From: Phormidesmis priestleyi ULC007 | GTDB taxonomy: Bacteria; Cyanobacteriota; Cyanobacteriia; Leptolyngbyales; Leptolyngbyaceae | NCBI RefSeq assembly: GCF_001895925.1 | Contig: NZ_MPPI01000001.1 | Location: 128,099-192,098, forward strand | Direction of reading: 5' to 3' | Length of the DNA stretch: 64,000 bases | Part shown: in pieces, positions 46,692-57,193 of the stretch | Position numbering within the stretch: the first letter of the stretch is position 1 | How the letters are laid out: every line of letters starts with the position of its first letter | Made by a program: the position numbers and the translations under genes | Notes under the pieces: model-generated | What the model was told of the DNA's origin: nothing | What the model saw: only the letters and a program-made list of their open reading frames with translations | The model's database searches: none

Positions 46692-46872
46692 TTAACGTCA
46701 GTTTGATAGAAGTGGTTCGCTTCGATTGTGAAGTCGGAGAGCTGCCTAAATCCCCCAATTTTGGGAGACTTCAAGCCAAAATCTCCGGTTCAAAGTCCCC
46801 CATTCTGGGGGATTTAGGGGGCAGAAGCCGCTGACAACGAAGCGAGAAAACTCGTCGAACTGACGTTTACTT
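46692..46872 (+). mobile_element. MITE-like element, subfamily A copy 3 (most complete)
   Basis: The left end TTAACGTCAGTTTGATAGAA and right end TCGTCGAACTGACGTTTACT are imperfect inverted repeats about 35 bases long including the GCTTCG part. The core matches the other copies (CTAAATCCCCCAATTTTGGG, CCCCCATTCTGGGGG, GATTTAGGGGGCAGAAGCCG). It fills the gap between the DUF1269 gene and the secreted protein gene. Confidence 0.85.
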
Positions 46873-47490: not shown

Positions 47491-48966
47491 ATGGCATCAG
47501 AACAGAACTACAATACGGCATCAGAACAGTCTCCTAGCCTAGCATCAGATAAGCAAACGCTTTCTGTCGCGGCACTCACTGCACTGGTCGTTGGTTCGAT
47601 GGTGGGCGCGGGCATCTTTACCATCCCTTCCGCGTTTGGCCGCGCAACCGGAGTATTGGGTGGGCTGATTGCCTGGGTGATCGCGGGTGTCGGTATGCTG
47701 ATGCTGGCATTTGTCTTCCAAAATTTGGCACAACGCAAGCCCGATCTAGATTCGGGTATTTTCGCATACGCCAAAACCGGGTTTGGCAATTATATTGGGT
47801 TCCTTGCGGCGCTGGCTTTCTGGGCAAGTACCTGTGTAGGGAACACTTCTTACTTCGTCCTGATCAAATCGACCTTGGGGGAATTCTTTCCTGTATTTGG
47901 AGACGGCAACACGGTTACGGCGGTGTTTTTTGCATCGATCATTTTGTGGATTTTTCACTTTATGATCTTGCGGGGTGTCAAGCAGGCGACGGGGCTAAAC
48001 ACGATCGTCACGATCGCCAAGATTGTGCCGATCGTCATTTTTATCTTTGTCCTCTTATTCGCGTTCAAACCAGATATCTTTGCCGCAAATTTTTGGGGCG
48101 GTCAAGGCTATGATGCCGAGTCTTTATTCAGTCAGGTTCGCAACACGATGCTGGTCACCGTGTTTGTGTTTATCGGCATTGAAGGCGCAAGTGTCTACTC
48201 TCGCTATGCCGAGAAACGATCTGACGTGGGTGTCGCTACGGTGTTGGGATTTGTGGGGGTACTCTGTCTGCTGATCCTGGTTACGGTTTTGCCCTACGGG
48301 ATTTTGCCACGAGCAGAACTGGGGGTATTGCGAAATCCGTCGATGGCAGGTTTATTTGAGTCGGTTGTGGGTCGCTGGGGTAACATATTCATCAGCCTCG
48401 GTCTGCTAGTCTCGGTACTCGGTGCCTTCCTGGCATGGACTCTGTTTGCCTCCGAGGTTCCGTTCATGGCTGCCAAAAGCAATCTCATGCCGAGTTTCCT
48501 AGCGCGGGAAAACAGCAATGGAGTACCCTCGGCATCGCTCTGGATGACCAATATTACGGTTCAGGCATTTTTGATTGCGACTCTGTTCAGTCAACAGGCA
48601 TTCATCCTTGCCCTAGAGTTGACGAGTTCGCTGGCTTTGATTCCCTACCTGCTGGTTGCTGCCTTCGCGCTAAAACTGGCTTGGAGCGGAGAAACCTACG
48701 ATCGCGATTCTCGCAACCGCACCAAGGAGTTAGTCATTGCTGCGATCGCCACGGCTTATTCTATCTTGATGATCTACGCAGGTGGTCTAGAGAAGTTATT
48801 GTTGTCGGGGCTAATCTTAGCGCCAGGAACAATTCTGTTCTTCATGGCCCGCCGGGAGCAGAACAGAAAAGTATTTACGTTCGGAGAGTGGTTCCTTTTC
48901 TCTCTGGCTACGATCGCGGCTCTTTCAGCCCTTTTTGCACTTTCGACAGGTCGGATCACTATCTAA
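47491..48966 (+). CDS. arcD: basic amino acid antiporter, arginine/ornithine type (ArcD-like)
   Basis: 491 residues, about thirteen helices, APC superfamily. The first helix begins VVGSMVGAGIFTIPSAFGRATG, with the GAGIF substrate motif; GIEGASVYSRYAEKR lies in helix 6. The sequence is of the arginine:ornithine antiporter kind, and the next enzyme gene is arginine deiminase. It should import arginine and export ornithine or a related product. The name rests on family and context together. The start ATG follows AGGAGCATTGT. Confidence 0.85.
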   Translation: MASEQNYNTASEQSPSLASDKQTLSVAALTALVVGSMVGAGIFTIPSAFGRATGVLGGLIAWVIAGVGMLMLAFVFQNLAQRKPDLDSGIFAYAKTGFGNYIGFLAALAFWASTCVGNTSYFVLIKSTLGEFFPVFGDGNTVTAVFFASIILWIFHFMILRGVKQATGLNTIVTIAKIVPIVIFIFVLLFAFKPDIFAANFWGGQGYDAESLFSQVRNTMLVTVFVFIGIEGASVYSRYAEKRSDVGVATVLGFVGVLCLLILVTVLPYGILPRAELGVLRNPSMAGLFESVVGRWGNIFISLGLLVSVLGAFLAWTLFASEVPFMAAKSNLMPSFLARENSNGVPSASLWMTNITVQAFLIATLFSQQAFILALELTSSLALIPYLLVAAFALKLAWSGETYDRDSRNRTKELVIAAIATAYSILMIYAGGLEKLLLSGLILAPGTILFFMARREQNRKVFTFGEWFLFSLATIAALSALFALSTGRITI

Positions 48967-48982
48967 ACAGTGTGAGGGCGTT

Positions 48983-49165
48983 ATGCCAAATGTGGCTATG
49001 GGTAAGGCAGTAGGGCGATCGCTGAGTCTATCCGTTCTGGCAAGCGGTAGTTTGTTATGGGAAAACTCTGCCTGGGCAATTGAGGATCTACCTACTGAAG
49101 TGGGTGCGATCGCTACTAGCCAAGATGAGGACATGAACCTCATGGAACAAGTCACCGTTTTTTAA
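48983..49165 (+). CDS. small secreted peptide or N-terminal remnant
   Basis: A 60-residue product (MPNVAMGKAVGRSLSL...) with a signal-like stretch (about 10-32, cleavage near AWA) and a short acidic tail ending MEQVTVF. GAGGG lies four bases before the ATG. It lies 16 bases after arcD and could be a real small exported peptide. The tail resembles the region just before the plug of TonB receptors, so it might instead be the broken N-terminus of a larger lost gene. Confidence 0.45.
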   Translation: MPNVAMGKAVGRSLSLSVLASGSLLWENSAWAIEDLPTEVGAIATSQDEDMNLMEQVTVF

Positions 49166-49274
49166 CTTAACAGTCCGCTGATGGATGCCAGAGACGGGAG
49201 AAGACCATTCCTACAGAGATCAATGAGAATCGTGAATGTAACACTCGGATCGAAATCTAATCAACGGAGTTATT

Positions 49275-50555
49275 ATGACTGTCACAACCAATACTGCTAC
49301 CACCAATCCAACTGCTGTTTCCTATGGTGTACACTCCGAAGTTGGCAAACTGCGAAAAGTAATGGTTTGCTCACCGGGTTTAGCCCATTCTCGTTTGACT
49401 CCCTCAAACTGCGACGATCTGCTATTTGATGACGTGCTGTGGGTAGATATGGCAAAGCGCGACCACGCTGACTTCGTGATGAAGATGCGCGGTCGCGGGG
49501 TCGAAGTCATTGAACTACACGAAATCCTGGCAGAAACCCTCGATATTCCAGAGGCAAAAAAATGGATCTTAGATCAGCAAATTGTCCCTAATGAGGTGGG
49601 GCTGGGGCTAGTTGAAGATGTGCGCGCCTTCTTAGAAAGCTTGAGTTCTCGTCACTTGGCTGAATACCTGATCGGCGGGCTTGCCATCTATGACATTCCC
49701 AAAGAGGCGGGTGGTGACTTCCTTCGGGCAGCGCAAGAAGCCAGCGGCGTGACTGGATACCTGCTGCCACCATTGCCCAATACCATCTTCACCCGCGATA
49801 CGACCTGTTGGATTTACGGCGGTGTGACTCTGAACCCGCTCTACTGGCCGGCTCGCCATGAAGAAACCGTTCTCGCAACGGCGGTCTACAAGTTTCACCC
49901 TAGCTTTACTCAGGCGAAGTTTGAGGTTTGGTGGGGCGATCCTACTCAACATCACGGCTCTGCCACGTTTGAAGGGGGGGATGTGATGCCGATCGGCAAT
50001 GGGGTTGTCCTAGTCGGCATGAGCGAACGCACTTCCCGTCAGGCAATTACTCAAGTGGCGGCGGCGTTGTTTGCTAAAGGAGCGGCAGAACGGGTGATTG
50101 TTGCCGGAATGCCTAAACTCCGCGCGGCGATGCACCTCGATACCGTGTTCACCTTCTGCGATCGCGATCTGGTTAGCCTGTATGCTGACATTATGAATCA
50201 GGTCACAACGTTCTCTCTGCGACCCAGTGACAAAGCACCGGGGTACGAGTTGACCAAAGACTCCGGTACTTTTGTTGATGTCGTTGCTTCATCGCTGGGG
50301 TTGAAGAAGATGCGCGTCGTGGAAACCCAGGGCAATGCTTACGCCAGAGAGCGGCAGCAGTGGGACAGCGGCAACAACTTTGTCTGCTTAGAACCCGGTG
50401 TGGTGGTTGCCTACGATCGCAATGTCTTGACCAACACGGCTCTCCGTAAAGAAGGCATCGAAGTCGTGACGATCGCGAGTTCTGAACTGGGACGCGGACG
50501 GGGCGGCGGACACTGTATGACCTGTCCCATCATTCGGGATGCGGTTGACTTTTAG
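49275..50555 (+). CDS. arcA: arginine deiminase
   Basis: 426 residues. It hydrolyses arginine to citrulline and ammonia. The N-terminal signature [15 protein letters not shown], the substrate-binding FTRDTT, the EGGDVMPI loop, the His in AMHLDTVFT and the catalytic Cys in [10 protein letters not shown] near residue 415 are all present. The length is right. The ATG at 49275 follows CGGAG. The next genes for citrulline use (ornithine carbamoyltransferase, carbamate kinase) are not in the window, so the citrulline must be handled elsewhere. Confidence 0.96.
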
Positions 50556-50596
50556 TGCCACTCGTCGATCGAAGCTTAAAACTAGGAGAGCAAGTC

Positions 50597-51028
50597 ATGT
50601 CTTTAGGTCCGGTTGAAATGCTGTGCGTCAAGTTTCCCAGCAACTTTATCAAAGACGAAATTTCGTCGGCATTGAAAGCGTTAGTGGAGAACAAGACGAT
50701 TCGTATCATCGATATCCTCTTCATCAAGAAGAGTGATAATGGTGAAGTGACGATGACCGAAATTGATGAGATGGATGATGTTGATCACAGCCTATTAGAT
50801 CCAATCATTGCCGACATTTCTGGGCTGATCGCTGAGGAAGATGTGCAACAGATCTCTCAATCTTTGGATAACAACTCGTTCGCAGCCCTAATGCTGTTTG
50901 AAAACATCTGGGCAACTGCATTCCGGGATGCGGTTTTGAATGCCGACGGTCAACTTTTACTCAGCGAACGAATTCCCAGCAGCGTGATTGATGAAGTCAT
51001 AGCGGCTCAGACTCAGGTAACAGTATAA
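50597..51028 (+). CDS. DUF6325 family protein
   Basis: 143 residues, soluble. It opens SLGPVEMLCVKFPSNFIKDEI, has a central VENKTIRIIDILFIKKSDNG and ends with FENIWATAFRDAVLNADGQLLLSERIP. This is as I remember for DUF6325, found in actinobacteria and some cyanobacteria next to a SHOCT protein. The ATG at 50597 follows AGGAGAG; an upstream start at 50555 has no site. It lies 41 bases after arcA. Function unknown. Confidence 0.75.
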   Translation: MSLGPVEMLCVKFPSNFIKDEISSALKALVENKTIRIIDILFIKKSDNGEVTMTEIDEMDDVDHSLLDPIIADISGLIAEEDVQQISQSLDNNSFAALMLFENIWATAFRDAVLNADGQLLLSERIPSSVIDEVIAAQTQVTV

Positions 51029-51054
51029 ATTCTCTTTCTCTACAGGAGGCTCAA

Positions 51055-51411
51055 ATGGTCAGAAGGCGAGGGGGTCGAGGTTTGTTAGGTACTGTGGCAA
51101 GAACAGCCGTGATCAGCAGTACCGCAACGGCGGCAAGCAGAGCAACGAGCGGCGCAATGAATCAGAGTGCGATTCAGGCGCAGCAAGAACAGGCAGCAAA
51201 GATACAGACTCAAGCCGAGATGGAGCAAATAAAAGCTCAACTTGCCGCTGTCCAATCTATGCAAGTCCAAGCGGCGGCAGTTCCAGCGGCACCAGCAGCA
51301 CCAGCACAGACCGATCTGTTGGCTCAACTGACTCAACTGACGCAGCTTAAAGAGGCCGGCGCACTGTCTGAAGAAGAATTTCAGCTTGCCAAAGCAAAGA
51401 TACTCGGTTAG
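51055..51411 (+). CDS. SHOCT-domain protein
   Basis: 118 residues. A basic N-terminus (RRRGGRGLLGTVARTAV) and an Ala-rich, Gln-rich low-complexity middle (about 45-85) precede a C-terminal SHOCT module, LLAQLTQLTQLKEAGALSEE-EFQLAKAKIL. It lies 26 bases after the DUF6325 gene with AGGAGG before the ATG. SHOCT modules are thought to mediate protein or membrane assembly. It probably works with the DUF6325 protein. Confidence 0.8.
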   Translation: MVRRRGGRGLLGTVARTAVISSTATAASRATSGAMNQSAIQAQQEQAAKIQTQAEMEQIKAQLAAVQSMQVQAAAVPAAPAAPAQTDLLAQLTQLTQLKEAGALSEEEFQLAKAKILG

Positions 51412-51439
51412 TGCAACCCGTTTTTTGGAACGCGATCCT

Positions 51440-51613
51440 AACTATGTACACACAAGTGTTTAATCGTTCATTGCTGAGATCTTGCCCCCTAAATCTCCCA
51501 ATCTGGGGGACTTTGAACTCGGAGTCTTGGCTTGAAGTCCCCCAATTTTGGGGGATTTAGGGGGCTGAAGCTGACTGAAACGGAGCGATAAACGACTTGT
51601 GTGTACACAGTAG
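51440..51613 (+). mobile_element. MITE-like element, subfamily B copy 2
   Basis: The left end ACTATGTACACACAAGTG and right end CTTGTGTGTACACAGTAG are inverted repeats. The core halves are GCCCCCTAAATCTCCC, GGGGGACTTTGAAC and GTCCCCCAATTTTGGG. It lies between the SHOCT gene and cyanophycinase, splitting the arginine island. Confidence 0.8.
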
Positions 51614-51708
51614 TAGAAAGCGATCGAGTGGCAGGCATTGCACAACTTGCTCATCGATCCAAAAGATTGTTGAGTGCTGCAAGGGCAGACACATTGGGAG
51701 GAATCAGT

Positions 51709-52512
51709 ATGGGTATTAAACCAACACACGGCGCTTTAGTGATCATTGGCGGTGCCGAAGATAGGGACGGCGATTGCGTAGTCTTGCGAGAATTTGTCAG
51801 ATTGGCGGGTGGCATGAAAGCCCACATTGCGGTGATGACTGCTGCCACCGGACACCCCGAAGAAGTCGGGGAGGTTTACATCCGCGCGTTCAAGCGATTA
51901 GGTGCAGAATCGGTGGAAGTGGTGGGTACAGAGCGCCGCAAAGATTCCGAGTGCGAAGAAGGGATATACACGATCGAACAGGCAACTGGCATTTTCTTCA
52001 CAGGGGGCGACCAATCGCGCATTGTGGAGTTTATCAAAGGTTCTCCTTTGTGCGATGCCATTCGTAAGCGGCATCAGGAGGGAGTCGTGATTGGCGGCAC
52101 CAGTGCGGGTGCTGCTATGATGCCCGACGAAATGATTGTAGGCGGGGCATCTGTATCTAACCCTAGTATCAATGCGGTCAGCATGGCTCCCGGTATGGGC
52201 TTTTTACCCGACATTATGGTAGACCAGCACTTTGCTCAACGGGGTCGCCTGGGTCGCCTGCTGGCAGCTCTGGTGCTGCACCCTGCGGTACTCGGTCTGG
52301 GCATTGACGAAGACACCGCCATTATTGTCAAGGGCGATGAATTTGAGGTAGTTGGACAGGGCGCGATTACGGTTGTGGATGAATCAACCGCTACCCACAA
52401 CAACCTGGAGGGATTGCTCAAAGATGAAGCGATCGCGCTCTGTGGAGTCAAGTTACACATTTTGCCGAGCGGCTATCGCTTCAACTTAAAAACGCACCTA
52501 CCAGTGCTGTAG
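51709..52512 (+). CDS. cphB: cyanophycinase
   Basis: 267 residues of the S51 serine peptidase family. It cuts the storage polymer cyanophycin into beta-Asp-Arg dipeptides. ALVIIGGAEDRDGD lies near the start, FFTGGDQSRIVEF near 104, and the nucleophile Ser is in GGTSAGAAMM near residue 132. The length is as expected for the intracellular type; there is no signal peptide. I start at the ATG at 51709 behind GGGAGG. An open upstream extension runs into the MITE and is not real. The M14 gene starts nine bases after its stop. Confidence 0.95.
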   Translation: MGIKPTHGALVIIGGAEDRDGDCVVLREFVRLAGGMKAHIAVMTAATGHPEEVGEVYIRAFKRLGAESVEVVGTERRKDSECEEGIYTIEQATGIFFTGGDQSRIVEFIKGSPLCDAIRKRHQEGVVIGGTSAGAAMMPDEMIVGGASVSNPSINAVSMAPGMGFLPDIMVDQHFAQRGRLGRLLAALVLHPAVLGLGIDEDTAIIVKGDEFEVVGQGAITVVDESTATHNNLEGLLKDEAIALCGVKLHILPSGYRFNLKTHLPVL

Positions 52513-52521
52513 AAGGTGAGT

Positions 52522-53610
52522 ATGACAACGCTAATCAGTTCTGAGAAGACGGTTTACACGGGCGATCAGATCCAGGGCGCACCTGTGATCAGTCAGTTGA
52601 ATGTCAATGACCTCGAACCCGGTAAGACGCACCGCTTTTTCTTCCAGGGGGTACAGATGGGCACCGGACAGCATTGGTATGTTCCTGTAGTGGTTGCGAA
52701 AGGCGATCGCGATGGCAAGCGCATCTCGCTGACCGCTGGTGTACATGGTGATGAGTTGAGTCCGGTGAATGCAGTGCAGCGCATCATGGCGAGTCTCGAT
52801 CCGGCAAAGATGTCGGGGACAGTGATTGCAATCTACGACCTCTCTCGCCCCGCTAAGGAGTATACACAGCGGATGTGGCCGACGGCTCAGAGCGGCGGCT
52901 CGTTAGTTGACCTCAATCGCGTGTGGCCCGGCGACGAAATAGGCGACAACGCACCGACCCGTCACGCGGGTATTCTCTGGAATCGTCTATTTAAGCACAA
53001 CATTGATGTGGCACTCGACTATCATACAGGGGCGACTGGTGGTGATTTCACAATGTTCATCTTCGCTGATCTTCGCAAGCCAGAGATCCGACAGATAGCC
53101 GAATTGTTTCCGATCGAGCAGATCAAGAACGATCCCGGTGAAGACGGTACGCTCGAAATGGCGTTCGTCGATGCAGACATTCCAGTCATGACCATTGAGA
53201 TCGGAGGGCCGCGAAGCTTCGATGCGCGAAAGATCGCGATGACTGTTGAAGGCAGCCTGAACGTACTCAAGCATTACAAACTGATTGACGGGAACATCGA
53301 TCGCACGTCTAGGGAAGCCAGAACCTTCTTCGGCGACACGTTTGAAACTATCCGTTCCACGATGGGCGGCTACCTTGAGTTGTTGGTTGATCTGAGAGAC
53401 AAAGTAACACCGGGTCAGAGAGTCGCGATTCAGCGCAATTCATTTGGCGATGTTGTTGCTGAGTATGCGGCGAGTGTGTCTGGGGAAGTTGCCACGATCG
53501 CGCGCGACGCACTCAGCGAACCAGGCTCACGGGTGATGCAGATCTTATACAACAGCATGGACTCGAAGCGCAATACTGATATCTGCCACGAACCCGGAGA
53601 CGACTATTAA
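52522..53610 (+). CDS. AstE/AspA-type zinc metallohydrolase
   Basis: 362 residues. It has Zn ligands in AGVHGDELSPVNA (His and Glu, near residue 76) and in DYHTG (near 172), and a catalytic Glu in MTIEIGGP near 230. The last ~100 residues form a beta-rich extension with GGYLELLVDLRDKVTPGQRV, as in the AspA/AstE group. Succinylglutamate desuccinylase acts in arginine breakdown; here the tight link to cyanophycinase suggests a substrate from cyanophycin or arginine. The start is ATG 52522 after AAGGTGAG; a GTG lies two codons upstream. Confidence 0.85.
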   Translation: MTTLISSEKTVYTGDQIQGAPVISQLNVNDLEPGKTHRFFFQGVQMGTGQHWYVPVVVAKGDRDGKRISLTAGVHGDELSPVNAVQRIMASLDPAKMSGTVIAIYDLSRPAKEYTQRMWPTAQSGGSLVDLNRVWPGDEIGDNAPTRHAGILWNRLFKHNIDVALDYHTGATGGDFTMFIFADLRKPEIRQIAELFPIEQIKNDPGEDGTLEMAFVDADIPVMTIEIGGPRSFDARKIAMTVEGSLNVLKHYKLIDGNIDRTSREARTFFGDTFETIRSTMGGYLELLVDLRDKVTPGQRVAIQRNSFGDVVAEYAASVSGEVATIARDALSEPGSRVMQILYNSMDSKRNTDICHEPGDDY

Positions 53611-53659
53611 TTCCTATTTTCAGTCATTCAACTTGTCTACAATTTATCTACTTTTAGCA

Positions 53660-54034
53660 ATGAATAACAAAGATGAATTCAATCGATTTTTACCAGACGA
53701 GAGTTTAGACCCAGACAAACTTTCGATTGGAATTCCGGCTGAACAAACGCCCCTAAACCCCGATAGAATTCCCTCTGGCTTTGATCCGATGGGCGAAATC
53801 CAGCTTCGGGGTCGAGCTTATCGAAGTTTAGCGGGAGGGCAAGCCCCGTGGTGGGTTCTGATCTCAGGCTGGGTGATCTTTGGCGGTTTTGTCTGGATAA
53901 TGGTGCGTCTCACAGTGCTCTCATCGTCCTTCGTGCTCTTGATTCCTTTGGCGATCGCCACCATTCCACTGTTCATTTTGCTGAAAGGAACAAAGGCTAA
54001 ACTTGCCAGCCAGAGGCACCGAAGAAGACGCTAA
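53660..54034 (+). CDS. small membrane protein, function unknown
   Basis: 124 residues. A soluble acidic N-terminal half (NKDEFNRFLPDESLDPDKLSI) is followed by two helices near 68-90 and 93-110, and a basic C-terminus HRRRR. The start at the ATG at 53660 is chosen over a TTG at 53633. It lies between the metallohydrolase and NhaC genes. The family is not recognised. Confidence 0.6.
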   Translation: MNNKDEFNRFLPDESLDPDKLSIGIPAEQTPLNPDRIPSGFDPMGEIQLRGRAYRSLAGGQAPWWVLISGWVIFGGFVWIMVRLTVLSSSFVLLIPLAIATIPLFILLKGTKAKLASQRHRRRR

Positions 54035-54090
54035 TCAGCGATCGTTCTCTTCAGAGTTTTTGCAGTTATTTATGAAATGAGGATACTCCC

Positions 54091-55581
54091 ATGTCTAGTC
54101 ACCCTCCTCCCCCACGCACCATCAAAGAACCGTCATATTTAGACGCGATCGTTCCACTCGTGGTGCTGATTGCGCTGATCGCAGGCTCTGTTGTGCTGTT
54201 TGGGCTGGGTGCGATCGATGGCCCTACTCAAGTCGCGTTGATACTCAGTACTATGGTTGCCGCCATCATCATTCTCAAGAATGGACATCCTTGGGACAAA
54301 ATCGCGGCATCGGGAGGGAGGGCGCTGGCATCGATTGTTAGCGCAATTTTCATTTTGTTGGCGGTGGGGGCACTGATTGGCACCTGGAATATGTCTGGCA
54401 CGATCCCAACCTTAGTTCATTACGGCATTCAACTGCTTCAACCCAATTGGTTCTACCTGGCAACCGCTATAATCTGTGCCATTGTTTCTGTAGGCATTGG
54501 CAGTTCGTGGACGACGGCTGGAACCATTGGGGTCGGGCTAGTCGGCATTGCGTCGTTGGTTGGGGTTTCCCCTGTTATTACTGCGGGTGCTGTAATTTCA
54601 GGTGCTTATTTTGGTGACAAGACCTCTCCCCTTTCCGAGACAACGCTGTTGAGCGCACAGTTGGCAGGGGCAGACATCTACACGCATATCCGTGCCCAGC
54701 TTTGGACATCGGTTCCGGCGTTTGTCATTTCGATGGTCGTCTTTGCGATTTTGGGACTCCGGGAGGACGTGATTGATAACGTCGAAACAGCGACCGATCT
54801 CGCTAAGTTGGATCAGCTTTTTTGGATCACACCCCTGAACTTAATTCCCTTGATATTTCTAGTCGTGCTGTCTATTCGCAAAATCCCGGCATCCCTGGCG
54901 ATTATGAGTGCGGCGCTGGTAGGGGGCATCATGGGCGCGATTCTCCAACCGCAAGCTATTGTGCGCTTTGTTAACGATCCGGCACTGGCTACCCCACTGG
55001 TCTACATCAAAGGCATTTGGGCGGCAATGGCAACTGGCTATCAGGAAAATTCCGGCATCCAAGATATCGATCGGTTGCTTTCACGCGGTGGCATGGACAG
55101 TATGTTGTTGACACTGTGGATCATCATCGGCGCGGTGACATTTGGCACACTGATGGAAGAATTTGGACTGTTGGCTAAACTGATTAATCCGGTGCTGTTA
55201 CGGGCAAAAACTACGGGTCTTTTGTTTGCCACGCTCGTAACGACCGCGATCGGGTTAAATATTGTTGCGGGGGATCAATATATTGCGCTGGTGCTGCCCG
55301 TACGCATGTTTCGCATCGAGTTCCAAAAGCGCGGATTGCAACCACAAAACCTGTCGCGTGTAGCCGCTGATGCTGGAACTGTAACGTCACCTCTGGTACC
55401 GTGGAATTCCTGTGGCGCATTTATGTCTGCCACGCTGGGTATCTCGACCTTCCTGTATTTACCGTATGCCATCTTCAATATTGCCAGTCCAATTTTGTCG
55501 CTTGCTTACGGGATCACAGGCTTTAAGATCGAGCGTATACCCTCCACAACAGCTATATATAGCAATAGCAATCCTGAATGA
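54091..55581 (+). CDS. NhaC-family Na+/H+ antiporter
   Basis: 496 residues, about eleven helices. Typical NhaC patterns include VGIGSSWTTAGTIGVGLVGIA, ISGAYFGDKTSPLSETTLLSAQLAG and AGTVTSPLVPWNSCGAF. Some members of this family exchange organic ions such as malate or lactate rather than H+. In this setting it may balance ions after arginine breakdown. The last residues, about IYSNSNPE, come from an R2 repeat that has joined the 3' end. Confidence 0.9.
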   Translation: MSSHPPPPRTIKEPSYLDAIVPLVVLIALIAGSVVLFGLGAIDGPTQVALILSTMVAAIIILKNGHPWDKIAASGGRALASIVSAIFILLAVGALIGTWNMSGTIPTLVHYGIQLLQPNWFYLATAIICAIVSVGIGSSWTTAGTIGVGLVGIASLVGVSPVITAGAVISGAYFGDKTSPLSETTLLSAQLAGADIYTHIRAQLWTSVPAFVISMVVFAILGLREDVIDNVETATDLAKLDQLFWITPLNLIPLIFLVVLSIRKIPASLAIMSAALVGGIMGAILQPQAIVRFVNDPALATPLVYIKGIWAAMATGYQENSGIQDIDRLLSRGGMDSMLLTLWIIIGAVTFGTLMEEFGLLAKLINPVLLRAKTTGLLFATLVTTAIGLNIVAGDQYIALVLPVRMFRIEFQKRGLQPQNLSRVAADAGTVTSPLVPWNSCGAFMSATLGISTFLYLPYAIFNIASPILSLAYGITGFKIERIPSTTAIYSNSNPE

Positions 55582-55656: not shown

Positions 55657-55706
55657 AACCGTTGCTCACAGTTCGTAAAACCAGTTCAAAAAATGAGGTG
55701 AACACT

Positions 55707-56264
55707 ATGATTACTGATTTTCAATCTGAAGTAGCTATCAAGAAATCGACGGGTTGGGTGATCGCCCTCAGCATTAGTCTGATTATTCTCGGCGGACTGG
55801 CGATTATCATGCCAGGGATTGCCTCAGCATTCTTCACCGTTGCGATCGGTTGGATTACGCTGATTAGTGGCGTGGTGATGATTGTTCAGTCGTTTCAGTC
55901 AAAGCCAGTCAGAGGGTTTTGGCTAAATCTGATTGTGGGTATCTTCTATGTGGTTGCGGGCACTTACATTCTATTTAATGTCGGAGCCGCGCTGCTAGCA
56001 CTGACCTTAGCCTTTGGGATTTTGTTCATTGTTGAAGGGATTTTTACCATCATCATGGCGTTTACCAATCGGGCAGGGCACAGAATGTTTTGGCTGGTGG
56101 CGTTCAACGGAATTATTACTCTGATTCTGGGCATCATGGTGCTGAATCGGTTTCCCTTCAGCGCGATTTGGCTGATTGGTCTGTATGTAGGCATCAGCAT
56201 TCTGATGAGCGGTGTCTCACTCCTAGCCGCTGCTCTGGCAGCTCGACGGACGATCGCCGCTTAG
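55707..56264 (+). CDS. HdeD-family (DUF308) membrane protein
   Basis: 185 residues with six helices in three pairs, typical of the HdeD repeat: ALSISLIILGGLAIIMPGIAS, WITLISGVVMIVQSF, and the later GIMVLNRFP motif. HdeD is linked to acid or stress resistance in other bacteria. The ATG at 55707 follows GAGGTGAACACT; an earlier ATG is unlikely. The role here is not known. Confidence 0.88.
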   Translation: MITDFQSEVAIKKSTGWVIALSISLIILGGLAIIMPGIASAFFTVAIGWITLISGVVMIVQSFQSKPVRGFWLNLIVGIFYVVAGTYILFNVGAALLALTLAFGILFIVEGIFTIIMAFTNRAGHRMFWLVAFNGIITLILGIMVLNRFPFSAIWLIGLYVGISILMSGVSLLAAALAARRTIAA

Positions 56265-56936: not shown

Positions 56937-57193
56937 TAGCACTTCTCCCCCAAGAGCAGGTGAACCGGACTCTTGCCCCCTCTCCTGCGGACTACCGTGT
57001 ATACACAAATTGCTTTAAGTTCGGATTGTTGGGGTTTGCCCCCTAAATCCCCCAGTCTGGGGGACTTTGACCCCGGACTTTCAGTTTCAAAGTCCCCCAA
57101 TTTTGGGGATTTAGGGGGCAGAAGCTGCTCATAACGAAGCGAAATGACTGATGTATACACGGTAGCTCCTGCGGGAGAGGGCTGGGGTGAGGG
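56937..57193 (+). repeat. palindromic repeat family R3 copy 4, split by MITE B3
   Basis: The left arm CAGGTGAACCGGACTCTTGC with CCCCTCTCCTGCGG and the right arm CTCCTGCGGGAGAGGGCTGG are halves of R3. The insertion at the tip is the MITE at 56991-57165. Confidence 0.75.
56991..57165 (+). mobile_element. MITE-like element, subfamily B copy 3 with 9-base target duplication
   Basis: The left end ACTACCGTGTATACACAA and right end GATGTATACACGGTAG are inverted repeats. CTCCTGCGG directly flanks both sides (56982-56990 and 57166-57174), an exact 9-base duplication. The core is as in the other copies. There is no ORF. Confidence 0.85.

Follow-up and report, generated by a model that had tools for sequence, protein, structure and literature searches.

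What does a metal-dependent hydrolase of the AstE/AspA type do directly behind a second cyanophycinase and a few genes downstream of a classical arginine deiminase? This question is raised by a gene block at positions 47491-55581 of a 64,000-nucleotide stretch of the Phormidesmis priestleyi ULC007 genome (contig NZ_MPPI01000001.1; hereafter, the window). The block joins two recurring units: an antiporter-arcA-DUF6325 unit, in some cases with NhaC, and a pair formed by the gene for a CphB2-type cyanophycinase (cphB2) and that for the hydrolase. Judged by its relatives (Kovacikia minuta, Nodosilinea and Phormidium), the host is a cyanobacterium, and cyanobacteria are the best-known makers of cyanophycin. 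The original prediction described a row of genes in one direction, encoding an ArcD-like antiporter, ArcA, a cyanophycinase, an AstE/AspA-type hydrolase and NhaC, and profile searches bear this out: all five match their families and lie on the + strand. From the neighbourhood and the predicted fold, we give an even chance to the reading that the main substrate of the hydrolase is beta-aspartyl-arginine (beta-Asp-Arg), the dipeptide of cyanophycin, and that it is a dedicated enzyme which supplies ArcA and belongs to a different branch from CphZ, the published AstE/AspA-type beta-Asp-Arg hydrolase of Acinetobacter baylyi.

Linkage of CphB2 and the hydrolase

A scan of the collection with an alignment of eight hydrolase sequences identified at least 439 relatives in 592 stretches, and the best 80 loci were kept. 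Four of these best 80 of at least 439 relatives were cyanobacterial and close, with hydrolases 63-66% identical to that of the window: Phormidium tenue (L047), two Nodosilinea (L048 and L050) and a Leptolyngbyaceae metagenome-assembled genome (L049). In all four, a CphB2 of 72-79% identity was encoded upstream of the hydrolase on the same strand, the matched parts being separated by approximately 275 to 1,200 bases; the cphB-hydrolase linkage for which a survey had been proposed therefore exists in four further cyanobacterial contigs. No cyanophycinase was found in the stretches around the other 76 loci, several of which covered less than 10 kb on one side. The label of one of these 76 loci, L077, is Cyanobacteria, but the protein groups with the mostly rhizobial branch described below, and the genome gave no cyanophycinase match. 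When 37 genomes were searched whole, cyanophycinases exceeded the cut-off in four, namely the window's own and those of L047, L049 and L050, with two hits in each (one of the two in genome G293, located at a contig end, was partial). More distant hydrolase relatives occurred in the other 33 genomes (29 from the rhizobial branch, two Vibrio-type and two more distant), which contained no cyanophycinase over the cut-off; four of them had weak matches below it. Hydrolase matches also occurred in 25 of the 292 genomes of a phylum sample, none of them above 33% identity apart from the window's own gene.

In the window, the hydrolase most likely starts at the ATG at 52522, which follows the stop codon of cphB2 at a distance of nine bases, and its N-terminus, MTTLI, is identical in the homologues of L047, L048 and L050. 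Because of the nine-base spacing, cphB2 and the hydrolase gene probably form one transcription unit. For cphB2, the ATG at 51709 is the more likely start, since it is preceded by GGAGG and agrees with the homologues, rather than 51601, which falls inside a palindromic element resembling a miniature inverted-repeat transposable element (MITE). This repeat element separates the arcA unit from cphB2. A promoter scan returned 7 sites versus 8.0 expected by chance, and no promoter is claimed because the count was no higher than chance.

Fold, residues and relatives of the hydrolase

The structure model of the hydrolase had a predicted local distance difference test score (pLDDT) of 93 and a predicted template modelling score (pTM) of 0.89. 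Its top structural matches were 3cdx (Z 33.6), DoeB 6twm (Z 33.0) and 3na6 (Z 32.6), and CphZ with bound beta-Asp-Arg (8eip) was matched at Z 28.6 over 300 residues, with a root-mean-square deviation of 2.6 and 14% identity. Succinylglutamate desuccinylases (Z ~18-20) and carboxypeptidases (Z ~17-18) came lower. At the sequence level, 6twm was found at E 1e-10; CphZ was not reached when the PDB was searched with the sequence alone (E 0.1), and a profile search found it at E 7e-7. Five residues, encoded at 52744 (His), 52753 (Glu), 52918 (Arg), 53023 (His) and 53197 (Glu), were invariant in 41 of 41 and 44 of 44 rows of two alignments; we take them to be metal ligands and catalytic residues, in agreement with how they align in 3na6 and DoeB. 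The 8eip structure is an E251A mutant, and Glu 53197 falls at about that residue, as judged from the ends of the match range only.

The hydrolase resembles CphZ (PDB 8ein/8eip) in its AstE/AspA-type fold and in the linkage of an AstE/AspA-annotated gene to a cyanophycin gene, here cphB2 in the window and the four loci. It differs in its sequence (14-15% identity) and in its partner, which is CphB2 with ArcA nearby and not CphA1. We therefore propose that the hydrolase works like CphZ, rather than identifying it as a CphZ; orthology with CphZ was considered and dropped because DoeB-type chains score higher by both sequence and fold. The DoeB/EutE N-acetyl-diaminobutyrate deacetylases (6twm and 6twl), together with the unassigned 3na6 and 3cdx, are the nearest solved relatives (Z 30-34) and have the same five residues at the aligned positions; the hydrolase differs from them in sequence (~20-23% identity), lies far below the NCBIfam cut-off for DoeB and, in the neighbourhood that was scanned, is not accompanied by ectoine genes.

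This likeness gives rise to a competing explanation, which we consider unlikely, although it fares best among the alternatives: the hydrolase may be a DoeB-kind deacylase of N-acyl amino acids (e.g., an N-acetyl or N-acyl basic amino acid) in an arginine-salvage island with CphB2, with the dipeptide left to the isoaspartyl dipeptidase IaaA. The structural and sequence ranks of DoeB/EutE are what such an enzyme would be expected to show; DoeB (TIGR02994) is also the sole NCBIfam match of the hydrolase, though at 60.1 bits against a cut-off of 402.7. The presence of IaaA in the genome, as well as the 33 genomes in which more distant hydrolase relatives occur with no cyanophycinase over the cut-off, point the same way. 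However, no ectoine or deacylation gene was found among the ten neighbouring open reading frames (ORFs) scanned, and the neighbour that recurs in the cyanobacterial branch is a cyanophycinase.

In a hydrolase tree of 59 rows, which contains no CphZ sequence, the six cyanobacterial proteins grouped together (support 96/92), and beside them stood a branch of 26 proteins, mostly from rhizobia (100/100), the two being joined at 100/99. These mostly rhizobial proteins (L051-L075 with L038, L039 and L044) are ~46-53% identical to the window hydrolase but have a twin-arginine translocation (Tat) signal: the twin-arginine motif was present near the start in 21 of 22 rhizobial-branch rows versus none of six cyanobacterial and none of 13 Vibrio-type rows. 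The absence of the motif from the cyanobacterial hydrolases would fit a cytosolic substrate. The rhizobial-type and Vibrio-type cousins had no constant neighbour in 14 loci read by eye. In two of the five Vibrio-type loci listed, a gene for a putative basic amino acid antiporter, YfcC (L085, 8387-9913; L089, 8385-9911), lies directly upstream of the hydrolase cousin.

Partners of CphB2 and ArcA, and the proposed route

The cyanophycinase of the window contains the GTSAG motif in the alignments, the serine of which is presumably the nucleophile. Among the 292 sampled genomes, 28 contained 29 places matching it at 53% identity or more, with the next group starting at 43%. In a tree of 46 cyanophycinases, the proteins of the window, L047, L048, L050, K. 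minuta and G123 formed one clade (98/97), which sits inside a cyanobacterial CphB2 clade of 26 rows (99/97); the CphB2 of L049, cut by the contig end, was omitted. For both this tree and that of the hydrolase, the program warned that long branches meet, at the base and not at the clades used here. A proteobacterial origin of the window CphB2, considered because of its ~39-40% identity to the CphB1 of the same genome, was rejected, since it falls in the cyanobacterial CphB2 clade.

Neighbourhoods were fetched for 20 of the 27 CphB2 places beyond the window's own genome and G123. In 13 of the 20, a CphA2-like gene stood beside cphB2 (30-37% to CphA1; mostly ~636 residues; the ORF of L185 is in pieces), and neither the hydrolase nor ArcA was seen in any of them. 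On the general cyanophycin synthetase model TIGR02068 (cut-off 850), two of these CphA2-like proteins reached 332 and 341 bits; we regard these neighbours as putative CphA2. According to passages of PMC10206079, CphA2 remakes cyanophycin from beta-Asp-Arg. The genome of the window contains CphA1 with the canonical cphB adjoining it, on another contig. The same synthetase search found nothing in the window, and the second-best match in this ~99% complete assembly scored 88.8 bits, far from the scores of the CphA2-like proteins, so CphA2 seems to be missing. The window CphB2 thus belongs to the same clade as those of the cphA2-cphB2 pairs of cyanobacteria, but here the hydrolase stands beside it.

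The classical ArcA family was over the cut-off in only three of the 292 sampled genomes, the window's own included, and G041 had a match below it (285.7 bits). In G123, arcA lies directly upstream of cphB2, which follows 25 bases later, and no match to the window hydrolase was found in that genome. In G170, the order is DUF1269, antiporter, arcA, DUF6325 and a full-length NhaC, with neither CphB2 nor the hydrolase in the stretch (best matches in the genome, 41% for the cyanophycinase and 26% for the hydrolase); a baeRF family 3 protein is encoded there between ArcA and the DUF6325-NhaC genes (L163, 5600-6730). The antiporter is beside ArcA, and DUF6325 near it, both in G170 and on the large plasmid pA of K. 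minuta, where the antiporter is in two frames and where these three genes lie ~12 kb or more from cphB2. The hydrolase and ArcA of the window are 81% and 91% identical, respectively, to their K. minuta counterparts.

As in the arginine deiminase pathway (ArcD-ArcA-ArcB-ArcC), an ArcD-like antiporter adjoins ArcA; unlike in that pathway, neither a catabolic ornithine carbamoyltransferase (OTC) nor carbamate kinase was seen within the block. No isoaspartyl dipeptidase was seen there either. The statement in the original prediction that OTC and carbamate kinase are absent can be extended beyond the block for the kinase, which was over the cut-off in none of seven genomes, the window's own included (weak matches occurred in all seven and in all 14 controls); for OTC, which was looked for within the block only and not by a genome-wide family search, it holds for the block. 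The genome also contains an ORF of 715 residues with a PF04455 domain, a domain that we assume to be carried by the 699-710-residue cyanobacterial enzymes later named arginine dihydrolase ArgZ/AgrE. By size, this ORF would fit those enzymes, which are described as cyanobacterial arginine deiminases in passages of PMC2242806; the same passages report carbamate kinase from just one of 24 genomes surveyed.

The proposed route would have as its core the two-gene unit of cphB2 and the hydrolase gene, joined to the arginine-use unit of antiporter, ArcA, DUF6325 and NhaC. CphB2 would cut cyanophycin to beta-Asp-Arg, the metal-dependent hydrolase would split the bond between the side-chain carboxyl of aspartate and the alpha-amino group of arginine, and ArcA would convert the arginine so delivered into citrulline and ammonia. 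Since no carbamate kinase was found, the citrulline may be converted back to arginine, serve some other use or leave the cell by exchange through the antiporter. The bond in beta-Asp-Arg is an N-acyl-arginine bond and is therefore within the known chemistry of the fold, which covers N-succinyl and N-acetyl amino acids; CphZ is itself an example of this fold cleaving the bond (passages of PMC10206079). Given that the genome also has IaaA, the hydrolase would act as a dedicated supplement to it and would not replace it.

A wider version of this proposal is more tentative, and we hold it at somewhat less than even confidence: that cyanobacteria recruited an AstE/AspA branch other than CphZ as another, independent hydrolase of the cyanophycin dipeptide, beside CphB2 and at the place where CphA2 stands in many relatives, so that the dipeptide would be committed to breakdown and, in certain strains, passed directly to classical ArcA. 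If so, certain strains would have their own one-way path from the cyanophycin store to ammonia, the AstE/AspA fold would have been turned to the beta-Asp-Arg bond more than once, and cells would face a choice between remaking the polymer (CphA2) and breaking it down (hydrolase and ArcA). The 2023 CphZ paper reportedly also covers the Pseudomonas aot operon. Passages of PMC10206079 that cite that paper describe as beta-Asp-Arg hydrolases certain enzymes whose genes adjoin cyanophycin genes and whose annotation is the succinylglutamate desuccinylase/aspartoacylase family, and CphZ is named in general terms as the next step in passages of a 2025 paper on a cyanobacterial cyanophycinase (PMC12661447). 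The idea of an AstE/AspA-type enzyme taking the dipeptide is thus in principle already published, and it is the second recruitment, in cyanobacteria, that would be new: no description of the cyanobacterial hydrolase branch, of its adjacency to CphB2 where CphA2 is missing or of the ArcA-CphB2 contact was found in the open-licence literature, which was screened mostly by title and abstract.

Several findings weigh against the proposal that the hydrolase serves beta-Asp-Arg breakdown for ArcA. IaaA, usually taken as the dipeptidase of cyanobacteria, is encoded in the genome (PF01112, 361.7 bits) and was over the cut-off in all seven genomes checked; it could perform the same step, so a second dipeptide-splitting enzyme is not needed, and the absence of the usual isoaspartyl dipeptidase, on which the original prediction built, is true of the block only. 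DoeB-type deacetylases are nearer to the hydrolase (Z 33, 21-23% identity) than CphZ is (Z 28.6, 14%), so the substrate could differ from beta-Asp-Arg. In K. minuta, cphB2 and the hydrolase gene are both on plasmid pA but far apart, and the frame of the hydrolase is broken in that record. The adjacencies in the four loci are, by the hydrolase tree, not four independent events, since L047, L048 and L050 lie close together in it. No ArcA was seen in the examined stretches of the four loci (that of L049 spans only 3.1 kb), so the link between the hydrolase and ArcA rests on the window. Finally, the closest CphB2 relatives (L187, L189 and L190) have neither CphA2 nor the hydrolase adjoining, so CphA2 was not simply exchanged for the hydrolase; the link of CphB2 to CphA2 may have been lost before the hydrolase arrived. 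The original prediction had named two findings that would together speak against it: a normal isoaspartyl dipeptidase, which the genome does carry, and a linkage found in no other genome, which the four contigs contradict. Its central idea, an alternative route in which the metallohydrolase processes the dipeptide, gains from the four adjacencies, the ArcA-CphB2 contact in G123 and the CphZ-like fold; it loses the premise of a missing dipeptidase and has a precedent in print as CphZ (in passages of PMC10206079).

Two further explanations concern the block as a whole. It could be a pH or ion stress island, in which ArcA, the HdeD-like protein, NhaC, the SHOCT-like protein and the DUF proteins produce ammonia against acid or salt and CphB2 and the hydrolase supply arginine from cyanophycin. 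The arrangement in G170, where DUF1269, the antiporter, ArcA, DUF6325 and NhaC stand together with no CphB2 or hydrolase in the stretch, and the recurrence of HdeD-like and DUF1269 genes near one or other unit are consistent with this explanation. However, NhaC is present only as broken pieces in changing frames between cphB2 and the hydrolase gene in L047 (9513-9929) and L048 (8830-9933), and the pair therefore does not seem to need it; we regard the stress island as improbable. The weakest alternative, to which we give little credence, is chance packing of genes that do not act together in a shuffling, repeat-bearing region: the outer gene order varies among the compared genomes, the pair is split in K. 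minuta and MITE-like repeats occur at 46739-46845, 51482-51588 and 57036-57142, but the order of CphB2 before the hydrolase has persisted despite the drift of the hydrolase to 63-66% identity and changed outer neighbours.

Neighbouring features and the Pseudomonadales loci

The features of the block are given in Table 1. The ArcD-like antiporter scored 564.3 bits on the arginine-ornithine antiporter model TIGR03810, just below its cut-off of 591, and NhaC scored 300.7 bits on the ArcD model NF052307 (cut-off 650). The small ORF behind the hydrolase gene had no Pfam or NCBIfam match. Further MITE-like palindromic repeats are located at 46739-46845 and 56975-57182 (including 57036-57142), and the latter element has terminal inverted repeats, as does the one at 51441-51611. 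In the K. minuta pA record (L046 and L041), the homologues of the antiporter, the hydrolase, a DUF2252 protein and an ATPase each match as two separate pieces, with a frame change in three cases; this pattern suggests indels from sequencing more than decay of the genes.

Table 1. Features of the block and its surroundings in the window, and second CphA-like ORFs at three Pseudomonadales loci
Feature	Position	Strand	Profile match or remark
APC-family basic amino acid antiporter, ArcD-like	47491-48966	+	TIGR00905, 530.6 bits (cut-off 409)
Arginine deiminase ArcA, classical, ~426 residues	49275-50555	+	TIGR01078, 506.6 bits (cut-off 489.1)
DUF6325 protein	50555-51028	+	ORF start overlaps arcA stop
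Small SHOCT-like protein	51055-51411	+	C-terminal SHOCT match, 26.5 bits (just under cut-off 27)
MITE-like palindromic element with terminal inverted repeats	51441-51611 (including 51482-51588)	no strand	Just upstream of cphB2
Second cyanophycinase, CphB2 type	51709-52512 (mechanical ORF 51601-52512)	+	TIGR02069, 319.4 bits (cut-off 126.6)
AstE/AspA-fold hydrolase, putative beta-Asp-Arg hydrolase	52522-53610 (mechanical ORF 52516-53610)	+	PF24827, 84.2 bits (cut-off 25)
Small ORF, membrane protein by eye	53633-54034	+	Related ORFs adjoin the hydrolase in K. minuta and L049
NhaC-family antiporter	54091-55581	+	TIGR00931, 386.5 bits (cut-off 370)
HdeD-like membrane protein (DUF308), membership in block uncertain	55662-56264	+	Related genes follow the pair in L048 and L050
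Second CphA-like ORF, L134	1848-3623		
Second CphA-like ORF, L135	3056-4741		
Second CphA-like ORF, L136	11222-12949		

CphZ sequences were also sought in Pseudomonadales, where CphA was over the cut-off in 12 of 341 genomes, and the neighbourhoods of all 12 were examined. No bona fide CphZ was found among these 12 cphA loci. An IadA-like gene was near cphA in 11 of them, on visual inspection of the N-terminal residues of the ORFs, and was not seen in L135; of two such genes scanned with TIGR01975, that of L141 was over the cut-off of 331.25 (398.6 bits) and that of L168 under it (308). A BLAST search of ten of the loci with the window hydrolase (L168 and L169 were read by eye) returned one relative, at 1206-2234 of L140, ~2.6 kb from cphA, which we take to be DoeB-like because its neighbour resembles DoeA. 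In L169 (5512-7746) and L168 (5534-7537), long cyanophycinase-like ORFs, each with two separate TIGR02069 matches, are divergent from cphA, with the IadA-like gene nearby. In three of the Pseudomonadales genomes, the ORF directly 3' of cphA encodes another CphA-like protein, which is 562-592 residues long (33-38% to CphA1).

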